Shown here piece by piece: positions 17,294 through 49,812 of a DNA stretch of 64,000 bases (position 1 is the stretch's first letter; every line of letters begins with the position of its first letter). The translations under genes were made by a program, and so were the position numbers. Below the pieces are notes generated by a model. It was not told where the DNA came from, did no database searches, and saw only the letters and a program-made list of their open reading frames with translations. This DNA is from a virus. The stretch spans positions 120,022 through 184,021 of IMG/VR virus record IMGVR_UViG_3300018080_000105. One strand, 5' to 3'.

Positions 17294-17308
17294 GGTTCTT
17301 ATTTACCG
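17294..17308 (-). repeat. 15-bp element, copy 1 (one mismatch)
   Basis: The minus strand reads CGGTAAATAAGAACC, differing by one base from the four other copies. It provides the TAA stop of the SEC-C gene, so here it lies upstream of the dUTPase start by 17 bases. Confidence 0.7.
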
Positions 17309-41781: not shown

Positions 41782-43215
41782 TCAATCGCCACCAGAGGAA
41801 TCCTGGATGGTTATGTAAAAGGAATCTACAGGACATAAAGCCAGTTCTCCCCCTTGTTTACGCACATAGTCTGCTCCAGGAATCGGCTCTTGTGAGTCTG
41901 CCCCTTTAACCAGTACATCAGGGTTCAACGTCCTCGCCAGCAACTCCACGTCGCCACTGAAAGGCACCACTGCGTCCACCATCGGCAGAAGCGAAAGATG
42001 CCTCGCACGCACCGGCGCTGGTACTCGCGGCCGGTGCTCGCCCTTCAAGGCCTTCAACGACGCATCATCGTTGTAAGCCACAATCACAAAATTGGCCCGA
42101 GTGGCGGCGAACTCAAACAGATCAATGTGACCGGAATGCAACCCGTCAAAACATCCGTTAAGCAACGCCACCCTCTTCCGCGGATGAAACCGACGGAACC
42201 GCGTCAACGCAGCTACGAGAGATTCGATTGTGTGAATTTTGTGTGAAGGACCTCCATGCGTTCGGACGAACTCGCCCAACTCTTCGCGGGTAGGCGCCAC
42301 CACTCCATACTGTCGAACCACGAGCCCCGCCGCCTGCATAGCGAACGCAACGCCCTGCGAGAACGGCTGCTTTTCCATATACGCAGCAGCCAAGGCTGCC
42401 ATCGTCGTATCCCCTGCCCCGCACACATCCCGAACCTCTGTGTCGACCCCAAACGGCGGGGCAAGTTCCGGGTCAGACATGTGCTCTGTTTTATACACAC
42501 AGCCATGCCGCCCGGCCGTCACCACGACCCGAGGAACATTGTAGATATCTGAAACCTGAGCGCACGCTGTATGTGCCCGCTCAGTCACCGACAACGTATC
42601 AGAGAGCCCCGGATGGCACATGTGCTCCACCATCTCGATCGCCTCAGTGAAGTTGGGCTTCAACAACCCCACTCCTTCATAAAGGTCAACCTTGTTAGGT
42701 CGCACGTCCGCAAAGATTGGAATTCCAACAGCAAAGTGTCGGATACTCTGCACAGCCGCCAAACTCAACAACCCTTTGTCGTAATCAGCAATCACAATCA
42801 GATCAATGGGTGTCTGATTCTCGGCCAATACTTGGAGCTTCGAGACGACGTGATCACCCATAATGTCAGGATGGGCTTCTTCCTCGTCAACACGACAAAG
42901 GATAGTGCCCCCAGACGTGATACGGTGCTTCACAGTCGTGGGGGTATCAGTCACCGCAAGCAACGGGTGCACGCCGTACTCTTCACACAGCTCTTGCACA
43001 CGCCGGCCCGCGGCGTCGTCGCCGATACTCGCTAACAACACAGCCTGATGACCGAGAGTCTGGATGTTGCGAGCAACGTTTCCCGCTCCGCCCAAACTGT
43101 CAGTTTGCTGTTGTTGTCGAATGATGGGCGCCGGGGCCTCCCGGGAGATGTGAGACATCTCCCCTTCGGTCCGCCGGTCCAACATCACGTCTCCGATGAC
43201 GAGCACGTATCCCAT
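41782..43215 (-). CDS. hldE: HldE, heptose 7-phosphate kinase / heptose 1-phosphate adenylyltransferase
   Basis: The 477-aa protein has both domains of bifunctional HldE. The PfkB kinase part has GDVMLDR at 8-14, SLGGAGNVARN at 40-50 and the catalytic GAGD at 266-269. The nucleotidyltransferase part has NGCFDGLHSGH at 353-363. HldE phosphorylates heptose 7-phosphate at C1 and, after GmhB acts, adds AMP to give ADP-D-glycero-beta-D-manno-heptose. Length is as in bacteria. The ATG has AGGAGG upstream. GmhB is 24 kb away on the same strand; GmhA and HldD are not seen in the window. Confidence 0.92.
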   Translation of the reverse strand: MGYVLVIGDVMLDRRTEGEMSHISREAPAPIIRQQQQTDSLGGAGNVARNIQTLGHQAVLLASIGDDAAGRRVQELCEEYGVHPLLAVTDTPTTVKHRITSGGTILCRVDEEEAHPDIMGDHVVSKLQVLAENQTPIDLIVIADYDKGLLSLAAVQSIRHFAVGIPIFADVRPNKVDLYEGVGLLKPNFTEAIEMVEHMCHPGLSDTLSVTERAHTACAQVSDIYNVPRVVVTAGRHGCVYKTEHMSDPELAPPFGVDTEVRDVCGAGDTTMAALAAAYMEKQPFSQGVAFAMQAAGLVVRQYGVVAPTREELGEFVRTHGGPSHKIHTIESLVAALTRFRRFHPRKRVALLNGCFDGLHSGHIDLFEFAATRANFVIVAYNDDASLKALKGEHRPRVPAPVRARHLSLLPMVDAVVPFSGDVELLARTLNPDVLVKGADSQEPIPGADYVRKQGGELALCPVDSFYITIQDSSGGD

Positions 43216-46663: not shown

Positions 46664-47888
46664 GTTTCATCTCCTTTCTGAGGACAACAGCCTGAAACTT
46701 CTGGCGCCCAGCTGTCCTGTAAAAATCTCCTTGGTGAAAAACACAGTGCGGCCCCAAACGTGATTCCAAATACGCTCCATGCGCTGATTTCATCACACAA
46801 GGGTGAGTCGCAGATCGGATCTCAATCCGCTTCTCGTCACAAATGGCCTGGACTAAACCAGGCACACCATCAACCGCATCTGAAATCTGGATGCTGGTGA
46901 GTACCCGCTCACCCATGTTCAACGTAAACGACGGACGCTTACCGAAAAATTGAAAGTTGCGATACCAGCGACCGCACTCACACTGCTGCCATTTCGTACC
47001 AATGTGGCATCTGTCATCGTTCAAGTAATCAATGAACGGAAAAGCTGGGTTGAAGTAATCTGTACAAGACAGTTGCCCATCAACTTCCTGCATATCACAC
47101 AACCAGTCGTACGTGTGGTACGTACCGAACTGACACTGGAAGAAAGAAGCGCCGCCATCCCAACAACGCATGTTGTCGCATACGTGGTCGACAATGCCGC
47201 GATCTACAAGTTGCCTGGCAGCATCTTGATCCACAGTCTCGCACGACGTGTACAGCAGCGACGCCAGCCGTCTTAATCGCCCCGAGTCCAGATACGATTG
47301 CATTGTTGACCAGGATGACACGACCACGTCAAACTCTCTGCGATTACTGTTTTGCAATTCATGAACCAGTCGCTGACACATCTTTGGCCCCTCCAGCTGC
47401 GGGGGGTACCGAAACCAGTAGGTACGCGCCACTCTCGCACCAGAGCTAGCGAGCGGTTCTTGCCACGTTGATTGCCGAATAGACAGCCGCACATCTTTCT
47501 GTGCGGGGTCAGGCACTAATCGAAGCACCGACGGACATTCCGGTACGTGGAACTCACGCTGAATCACATTGTTCTTAGCCCGCATGATTTTGGGCTTCTG
47601 CCAGCTGTAATACTTGAACCGTGATCCCGTCGTCGCAGATGTGGTACACGTAACCACGTCTTCGCACCGCAGCGGCGGCATACCCGCCAATGTATCGCGC
47701 GTCTGGAATTGCCCGATCGTGTCAGCGTAATGCGGGAACTTCGATCTGGCCCATTCTCGAATGAAGAAATCGCGCTCCTCCCGAAACTGAAGAAGCGCAT
47801 CCAAATCATACTGCAGGTCCGACAGCTCAAATGCCCGCTCTGTGTCCAGGAGCTGGTCAAGCTCTCGCAGGGGCTGCCGCAGGTTCAT
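46656..47888 (-). CDS. AMP-forming ligase-like protein (PaaK/CapK type)
   Basis: The 410-aa protein has TTSATTGSR at residues 82-90, matching the phosphate loop TSGTTG-x of acyl-adenylate-forming enzymes with Ala for Gly. Later comes DYFNPAFPFIDYL, then CECGRWYRNFQFFGKRPSF, which matches the C-x-CGR...GR block of PaaK/CapK-like proteins. Enzymes of this family activate a carboxylate with ATP and pass it to a thiol, amine or sugar. Substrate unknown. It precedes the DUF115-like gene, so the two may act on one surface or virion glycan. Confidence 0.65.
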   Translation of the reverse strand: MNLRQPLRELDQLLDTERAFELSDLQYDLDALLQFREERDFFIREWARSKFPHYADTIGQFQTRDTLAGMPPLRCEDVVTCTTSATTGSRFKYYSWQKPKIMRAKNNVIQREFHVPECPSVLRLVPDPAQKDVRLSIRQSTWQEPLASSGARVARTYWFRYPPQLEGPKMCQRLVHELQNSNRREFDVVVSSWSTMQSYLDSGRLRRLASLLYTSCETVDQDAARQLVDRGIVDHVCDNMRCWDGGASFFQCQFGTYHTYDWLCDMQEVDGQLSCTDYFNPAFPFIDYLNDDRCHIGTKWQQCECGRWYRNFQFFGKRPSFTLNMGERVLTSIQISDAVDGVPGLVQAICDEKRIEIRSATHPCVMKSAHGAYLESRLGPHCVFHQGDFYRTAGRQKFQAVVLRKEMKRG

Positions 47889-48363
47889 ATTTTGCGAACT
47901 CCTTCACGAACTCACACAAAGCCTGTCGCAGACCGTTGTAGTCCAGAGCCGCCAGGTCGGTTGTCTCCAGGTACTTCACGCAGCCCTTCTCGTCATCCAG
48001 CAGCAACAGGTACTCGCCGGCCTCACAGGCGTCCGGATCGTCAAAATCAACGCAGCCAGATTGTAGCGTAATCCCGTTCCTGGCCTCCACCGTCAGCGGA
48101 TTCCGAAACGGCTCGTATTCCTCGAAGTCGGCGATCAGGCGAGCCACCGCAGCGGAAGCCGTGCTGTGTGGTCCGACACTGGTAGCCGCCATCGGCTGGT
48201 TTGATTTCAGCACATGCGGCGGGAATTCATCCGGATCAGCAAAGAAACTGCCCTCGCGACGACGCCAGACACACAAGACTGTTCGTTGGTCGACAACGTG
48301 CCGATTGAAGAACAACTGGACTGTGCGTTCGAGGTTCTTTTTGTCGTTTTCGGTGAGTGTCAT
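47857..48363 (-). CDS. Hypothetical protein, 168 aa, first gene after the non-coding region
   Basis: The ATG at 48363 follows the 15-bp element directly (AGGA 6 bases upstream). The protein has a basic helical N-terminus (KKNLERTVQLFFNRHVVD), a middle with FADPDEFPPHVLKS, and a hydrophobic LLLLDDEKG segment. It overlaps the ligase-like gene by 32 bases. No family is recognised. Its promoter should lie in the 900-base region upstream. Confidence 0.72.
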   Translation of the reverse strand: MTLTENDKKNLERTVQLFFNRHVVDQRTVLCVWRRREGSFFADPDEFPPHVLKSNQPMAATSVGPHSTASAAVARLIADFEEYEPFRNPLTVEARNGITLQSGCVDFDDPDACEAGEYLLLLDDEKGCVKYLETTDLAALDYNGLRQALCEFVKEFAKYEPAAAPARA

Positions 48364-48366
48364 GGT

Positions 48367-48381
48367 GGTTCCTATTTACCG
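48367..48381 (-). repeat. 15-bp element, copy 3
   Basis: The minus strand reads CGGTAAATAGGAACC and lies directly before the start codon at 48363. No gene ends here, so the conservation is not explained by an upstream coding sequence. Confidence 0.8.
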
Positions 48382-48451
48382 GTCTCGCCGGTGGGAAGGG
48401 TTTTCTCACGTACGGGAAATAGTCGTGTGTGACGCCACACAGACGAATTTT

Positions 48452-48467
48452 GTATCATCTGTGATAC
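48452..48467. repeat. Dyad GTATCA/TGATAC
   Basis: A perfect 6-bp inverted repeat with a 4-base spacer lies about 90 bases upstream of the first gene of the operon, where an operator or RNA hairpin could act. Confidence 0.45.
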
Positions 48468-48634
48468 GGTTTTGCTGTACGTGGTTGTACATCGTATTTT
48501 TACCAGCAAAACGATACCGTTTGTGAGAATCGAGCCTCGCAGAGCCTGATTTTTATCGGTGTCGAGTCACGGGCGTTTTGTTCGGTTTTCCAACTACTAG
48601 CGGCGCAACGAGTTACGTCGAGGTGTGCGAGCGC

Positions 48635-48649
48635 CTATAGCATAAAGTT
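48635..48649 (-). repeat. 15-bp repeat AACTTTATGCTATAG, copy A
   Basis: The same 15 bases recur at 48769-48783. On the minus strand the AT-rich core could be part of a promoter for the leftward operon. Confidence 0.6.
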
Positions 48650-48768
48650 TGAAACTCTGTTTTCGAGTAGTCAAAAAGTATTACTACATGTCCTACCCTT
48701 ACGTAGAAGTTGAGTTTCCGTAAGTCGTGTCACTGTCTCGGGTTGTGATGCAACTTTACCCATTGTGA

Positions 48769-48808
48769 CTATAGCATAAAGTTATGCTATTGATTACAGC
48801 ATAATGCT
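48769..48808. promoter_or_regulatory. AGCATAA dyad cluster, candidate operator or promoter
   Basis: Copy B of the 15-bp repeat (48769-48783) is extended into a dyad ATAGCATAA-AG-TTATGCTAT (48771-48790), and AGCATAATGCT follows at 48798-48808. Repeated dyads in an intergenic region typically bind a dimeric regulator or initiator. They also sit at the left edge of the GC-rich hairpin series. Confidence 0.5.
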
Positions 48809-49210
48809 GAATACGCAGGTCGCCGCCTTCTGCGGCTCCCCGCGTATTCTGAGAGCGAAAGAAAGAGACAACCAGGCACGTTCACGCCAAACCTTCGTGG
48901 TGCCTCCGGCCGCGTACGCCCAGGGGCTGCGGCCGGACTCGGCCCTGCTCACTCCCGAAGCCAGTGTGGGCCGAGGCCGTCGCGTTAGTTGTTGCTCCGC
49001 TATCACCGGTAACCACCGATACAGGGGTCTGATTGTCGGCTTGGTTTGCCGGGAACTTAGCGAAACGGCCCCGTGGCGCTCCTCTGACAGTCTCGCGAGT
49101 AGGGTCGCTTGCGTATCGCTGTTACCGGCCCGCAGAAAGCCTCTCAGAGCCTCGTAGCTGATTTCTGTTTCAGAAGTAACCCTGATTTCCCTAAGTCTTT
49201 TCTGGTAAAT

Positions 49211-49256
49211 GACTTACGGCAAACTGCTGTAAGAAAAACCGTAAGTCTTTTCTTAC
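49211..49256 (+). terminator. Terminator-like hairpin pair with alternative pairing
   Basis: On the plus strand GACTTACGG (49211-49219) pairs with CCGTAAGTC (49239-49247) and is followed by TTTTCTT. A second 9-bp stem, GTAAGAAAA (49229-49237) with TTTTCTTAC (49248-49256), uses the loop of the first and its U-tract, so the two are probably exclusive. It could also end the leftward transcript of the gene stopping at 49264, though the minus-strand tail is less T-rich. Confidence 0.65.
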
Positions 49257-49263
49257 AAAGGGG

Positions 49264-49812
49264 TTACGTCAATTGAGCTTTTCGTCGCTCGCACAGCAAT
49301 TTAGTGTGTTCCTCCCAAAGCAGCCGCGTGTTCACGCCAGGCGTCATGTCGAAATGATCTGTCAAAGAATCAAGCAGGCTGTCCAGCTGGGCTTCTGCAG
49401 CGTCTCTCTGTGCGGTGATTGCTGCGCTGTCTGCCGGTTGGTCGTCGGCTTCTTTGTCGCCGAGGTGGCCCCTCCCCGCCGGTTGTCGCGGCGGTAGGTC
49501 TGCGTCCCGTCGCGGCATAGGGATGTACTTTGTTGTGAAAAAGCCCAGCAACGGATCTTCCCTAACCAGCATCTGGACAAATACGGTCACGGCGCCAGCA
49601 CGGTTGCCGACTACTTTCCCGTTGATTTTCACTTGATCCTGAAACAGAGGCTCGCTGCTTCGCTGGATCTCGAACTCCAGGAAAAGTTCCGGAAGCGGTT
49701 GAATCGAAAAAGACTCAGTCGCCCGGAGAATGGTCTGAATGTGGTAGCTAAACGAGTCCAATCGGTACTCACCCGTCGCGACCTGACTCTCGCTTGGTTT
49801 CAGTGATGTCAT
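49264..49812 (-). CDS. Hypothetical protein, 182 aa
   Basis: The N-terminal 100 residues (SQVATGEYRLDSFSYHIQTI, FQDQVKINGKVVGNRAGAVT) look beta-rich. A disordered charged linker and a helical C-terminus follow. It is the last gene of the operon to the right of the non-coding region. No family is recognised. Confidence 0.7.
   Translation of the reverse strand: MTSLKPSESQVATGEYRLDSFSYHIQTILRATESFSIQPLPELFLEFEIQRSSEPLFQDQVKINGKVVGNRAGAVTVFVQMLVREDPLLGFFTTKYIPMPRRDADLPPRQPAGRGHLGDKEADDQPADSAAITAQRDAAEAQLDSLLDSLTDHFDMTPGVNTRLLWEEHTKLLCERRKAQLT

Follow-up and report, generated by a model that had tools for sequence, protein, structure and literature searches.

Genomic setting of the gap

The window analysed here is a stretch of 64,000 nucleotides that corresponds to bases 120022-184021 of an IMG/VR record of 184,021 bases (G000). 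The genes of this contig nearly all run leftward, and our own crude caller places 225 of them on it, covering 93% of the sequence with a median gap of 9 bp, which agrees with an earlier reading of the sequence alone (hereafter the sequence-only reading) that had described a genome with almost no gaps. The encoded proteins include a terminase large subunit, DNA polymerase, DNA ligase, a tubulin/FtsZ-like protein, RecA-like, SbcC-like and SbcD-like proteins (the last two names being our reading of SMC and metallophosphoesterase domains) and, in an open frame of 1484 residues, an RNA polymerase beta subunit. The source of the window is a jumbo-type phage. Its contig is probably incomplete; relatives extend to about 205 kb. 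A terminase query returned 80 loci of related phages in IMG/VR, with best identities of 78, 73 and 72%. Salmonella phage Arash was considered as a laboratory relative and set aside, its terminase being only about 32% identical and its gene layout different. Elsewhere in the window, a PfkB-type sugar kinase is fused to a cytidylyltransferase domain (41782-43215, minus strand) with the domain layout of HldE, a heptose enzyme; G001 and G003 have relatives of it at 46-47% identity.

Within this compact genome the second largest gap, of 900 bases, lies exactly between the ATG of one leftward gene and the stop codon of another (Table 1). The largest called gap is of 1055 bp (G000:C1:116205-117259, equivalent to L009:16205-17259) and its structure is not unusual. 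Scored by the phage's own codon usage, all of the open reading frames tested within the 900-base gap are negative and the flanking genes are positive, and searches of the gap frames against Pfam and PHROG gave no match of note. The earlier statement that the stretch holds no convincing gene is thereby upheld.

Anatomy of the gap

Table 1. Features of the 900-base gap and its flanking genes (window coordinates).
Feature	Position	Strand	Basis or detail
Flanking gene	47857..48363	-	168 aa, first of leftward operon; no known family
Non-coding gap, candidate replication origin and promoter region	48364..49263		Size rank, no coding signal, bias change point
16-base GGTAAATAGGAACCAC motif adjoining ATG of first leftward gene	48365..48380	-	Exact here, recurs in contig
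Nested inverted repeats, outer arms TTCTCACGTACGG / CCGTTTGTGAGAA	48403..48529		z of local fold -3.6 (plus) and -4.3 (minus)
Repeat AACTTTATGCTATAG, copy 1, candidate initiator-binding repeat	48635..48649	-	Exact
GACTTACGG, further copy	48718..48726	-	Motif search
Repeat AACTTTATGCTATAG, copy 2	48769..48783	-	Exact
AT-rich palindrome ATAGCATAA-AG-TTATGCTAT	48771..48790		9-bp arms, 2-base centre
Long GC-rich hairpin	48809..48849		18-nt arms, 83% complementary, 5-nt loop; best local fold z of the gap
GC-rich hairpin, arms CGGACTCGGCCC / GGGCCGAGGCCG	48934..48979		Inverted repeat, 12-nt arms
34-base repeat, copy 1	49189..49222	+	GACTTACGG at 49211-49219(+), GACTTAGGG at 49189-49197(-)
34-base repeat, copy 2	49239..49272	+	76% identical; overlaps end of next gene; GACTTACGG at 49239-49247(-)
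Flanking gene	49264..49812	-	182 aa, last of right-hand block; no convincing family

The left edge of the gap is marked by the GGTAAATAGGAACCAC motif, which may act as a leader, a ribosome-binding site or a promoter element. A 14-base motif, GGTAAATA(A/G)GAACC, occurs at 17 sites in the 184-kb contig when up to two mismatches are allowed, in both orientations, including window positions 17307(-), 29747(+), 40419(-), 48380(-), 50701(-) and 63416(-) with 11 more elsewhere in the contig. It often stands directly before start codons and sometimes beside a hairpin, and is possibly a phage promoter or leader.

The two exact copies of the 15-mer AACTTTATGCTATAG are 134 bases apart and there is no third exact copy in the contig, and the AT-rich palindrome is a candidate opening or binding site. 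More GC-rich sequence follows the long hairpin at 48809-48849, as far as about 49160. The heptamer GACTTAC is present in three copies against 0.05-0.06 expected. No DnaA box was found in the gap within two mismatches of TTATCCACA starting with TT, although such boxes are absent from many phage origins.

Folding and the case for a structured RNA

The hairpins that the sequence-only reading had seen in series are real, in that each strand of the gap has a lower folding energy than shuffled sequence. The z values are -4.3 for the plus strand and -6.9 for the minus strand, with -5.7 and -5.8 in another run, and the structure is concentrated at approximately 48364-48560 and 48684-48963 in local folds. 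In the same test the extremes among 14 coding windows were -3.2 (plus) and -6.4 (minus), such that the excess of the gap is outstanding on the plus strand, and on the minus strand lies among the extremes reached by coding windows. Expressed per base the excess is alike on the two strands (-0.047 and -0.049 kcal/mol), which is what inverted repeats in DNA would give. The density of palindromes in the gap is ordinary; high palindrome density, considered as a mark of an origin, holds for the gaps of several relatives but not for that of the window.

The earlier suggestion that this structure belongs to a large ornate RNA is not supported. In the Rfam library, which we take to include GOLLD, ROOL, OLE and HEARO, no family reaches its gathering score, and under permissive thresholds the best matches are to other families and at chance level. 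No alignable homologue of the gap was found by blastn against the phage collection, by scans from the flanking proteins or by a 17-mer scan, the single match of which (L220) is within a gene on an unrelated contig and was put down to chance. A similarity at G010:178077 (E 0.002-0.014) belongs to another intergenic gap, a long way from the strand switch of that genome. GOLLD and ROOL are known from phages, and the ornate RNAs GOLLD, ROOL and OLE resemble the gap in length and in their serial hairpins (PMC12286853), but the gap has no covariance-model match and its structure is equal on both strands. The terminator-like end claimed for the plus strand also dissolves on comparison, with four sites against 3.0 +/- 2.1 in shuffles and none at the right-hand end; the 10-bp AT-rich stem at 49228-49257 is not followed by a T-run. 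That the gap holds a new large structured non-coding RNA gene is quite unlikely: the serial hairpins and low folding energy speak for it, as does an element in related phages that is discussed below, and they are set against the missing Rfam match, the equal excess on both strands, the want of a convincing promoter or terminator and of any alignable homologue.

A switch in strand bias at the gap

A separate line of evidence comes from base composition, measured as the fraction of G+T (keto) at third codon positions in genes of the same direction. For minus-strand genes this fraction drops from 0.607 on the left side of the gap to 0.515 on the right, and since the genes on both sides run in the same direction the change does not arise from a change of coding strand. 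The best change point falls at contig position 168295, with a 3-nat interval of 167844-169420 (window 47823-49399) that covers the gap (contig 168385-169284), and in 2000 permutations of gene order the maximum was 30 compared with the 56.7 observed. Fourfold-degenerate sites alone place it at window 48238. When positions are resolved to gene boundaries, the optimum in the window phage shifts leftward from the gap by one gene, which limits the precision. Leftward of the gap the bias decays with distance; to the right it is approximately neutral in both G000 and its nearest relative G001, with no clear reversal.

The same analysis was applied to 12 further records, making 13 in total, and in 11 of them a downward switch is present upstream of the terminase gene, at a distance of approximately 10-23 kb (in G014, on the assumption of a circular contig). 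The support interval includes a gap of at least 300 bp in nine of these 11, where random placement would give 2.39, and the associated P of 2.5e-5 is optimistic as it treats related phages as independent records and is further favoured by the choice, in records with several change points, of the downward one upstream of the terminase. The records vary in how sharply they show this. In G001 and G004 the switch is exactly at a gap, in G010 the interval misses the conserved gap by 0.7 kb, in G006 the position depends on the method, and in G003 the switch is weak and there is no gap of at least 300 bp. Of the two remaining records, G005 has no such switch and G002 is a 53-kb fragment that begins 6.6 kb before the terminase. 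Outside a sister clade, the gap sequences of the relatives do not align to each other.

This recurrence bears on the idea that the gap is a decayed gene or a spacer without function. Such a reading would fit the lack of family similarity and the presence of other long gaps in the contig, but the structure and repeats at 48364-49263 stand out against the contig's other large gap, and the coincidence with a strand switch, repeated at gaps in the relatives, makes it highly improbable.

Replication or transcription

What kind of process would leave such a mark? The few genes that oppose the general direction are informative here. To the left of the gap the rightward genes have keto fractions of 0.463 in G000, where they amount to only 698 codons, few to test a strand model, and 0.452 in G001, whereas the leftward genes are at about 0.60. 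Since the rightward genes are biased oppositely, the bias is a property of the DNA strand. To the right of the switch it is the rightward genes that have the higher fraction in most relatives. With ten records pooled, the DNA-strand term comes to +0.032 +/- 0.006 left of the switch, a value drawn mainly from G000, G001, G003 and G004 as usable rightward genes are lacking on that side in the other six, and to -0.022 +/- 0.004 right of it. This change of sign across the switch is the pattern of G/T-rich leading strands departing from one point.

The bias could also mark a boundary of transcription only, where strong promoters of the leftward operon lie in the gap and heavy transcription of the left block exposes the non-template strand. 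The position of the gap upstream of a long leftward gene block, with a recurrent leader motif, is in keeping with this, as are the phage's own RNA polymerase and the decay of the bias with distance leftward. The rightward genes on the left, however, are biased oppositely in the coding sense, and the sign flip of the pooled strand term is not predicted to the right of the switch by transcription of the leftward operon alone. An account in terms of transcription only is thus rather unlikely.

The reading we favour, with a probability of roughly 0.6, is that the gap serves this jumbo phage as its main replication origin and also houses the promoter region of the leftward operon. This assignment is drawn from sequence analysis and rests on the bias switch at the gap, its recurrence at a comparable place in relatives, and the repeats and palindrome that are specific to the gap. 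The sequence-only reading had offered an origin as its other option; that option now has good indirect support from the strand asymmetry, although the DnaA boxes that might have accompanied it are missing. As a mechanism, a phage- or host-encoded initiator would bind the AACTTTATGCTATAG and/or GACTTACGG repeat units, after which the region of the AT-rich palindrome would open and forks would depart from the gap, the leftward fork using the minus strand as its leading strand. The sign change in the relatives suggests a rightward fork on the other strand, such that replication would be bidirectional. In the window phage and G001, where the right side is near neutral, this rightward fork is perhaps weaker or shorter-lived.

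To our knowledge, the replication start site and mode are not known for most jumbo phages. Replication origins as such are familiar, and it is the fine location of the candidate, together with its relatives, that makes it testable. Among huge phages about 30% of genomes are reported to have a skew that indicates bidirectional replication and 30% a skew that indicates unidirectional replication (Al-Shayeb et al. 2020, PMC7162821). The present case is similar in that the skew of a large phage genome points to an origin, and differs in that the switch is placed to about 1.6 kb through third-codon-position bias among genes of the same direction and is compared with gaps in relatives. With gene direction corrected for, this method is finer than whole-genome GC skew and is applicable to other metagenomic phages. 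Its product here is a compact candidate origin in the form of a concrete fragment, the corresponding site of which in relatives keeps its rough position and not its sequence.

A hairpin element in the sister clade

A sequence element is common to the gaps near the switch in four relatives (G006, G008, G010 and G014). A pattern scan finds it in 12 IMG/VR contigs, as a single copy in each, with a one-mismatch copy in G023 and a copy in G009 that was found by covariance model R1 (33.3 bits). The aligned loci (alignment A3) are L227:360-510(+), L222, L223, L224, L225, L226, L228, L229, L231, L232, L233, L235 and L237, and the element is also seen at L197:7325-7516(+). It is non-coding, contains a conserved GATCGGGGG segment and has no match in Rfam. 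Across 13 sequences its two serial hairpins are fully paired, with compensatory changes in four pairs, and the covariation score is matched by 0 of 500 shuffles and destroyed when the partners are slid. One pair, read on the plus strand, is G-C in eight sequences and G.U in five, which on the other strand would be C.A. Compensatory change in this element cannot tell an RNA hairpin from a DNA hairpin.

The element is like the gap of the window in being non-coding, in its serial hairpins and in its enrichment for GACTTAC (three copies against 0.03-0.04 expected in G010 and G014, one against 0.02 in G008; six other relatives have none). In genomes with a skew measurement the element also sits upstream of the terminase, at the strand switch or close to it. 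As a homologue of the window's gap it was rejected, the best R1 score there being 3.3 bits with filters off and there being no sequence match. It is a better lead for an RNA than the gap itself, and a separate one. With regard to an RNA gene in the gap it cuts both ways, as an element near its own switch with compensatory changes and as one that is not found in the window. A broader proposal is that a structured RNA forms the core of the origins in this family, as a leading-strand primer or a copy-control RNA read opposite to nearly all genes; the conserved sister-clade element would be one form of it, and the 900-base gap would hold a fast-diverging counterpart; this we regard as improbable.

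Two further observations concern gaps of the relatives. In G001 the gap at 74226-74962 was suspected by eye of holding a tRNA, which ARAGORN did not call. The sister-clade gaps carry at their right end a long perfect hairpin with GTAGGGGCGGG arms and a flanking A-run, a T-run on the minus strand (L215:5899-5947, L135:10788-10820, L148:6270-6301), and this is likely to be an intrinsic terminator of the right-hand leftward operon.
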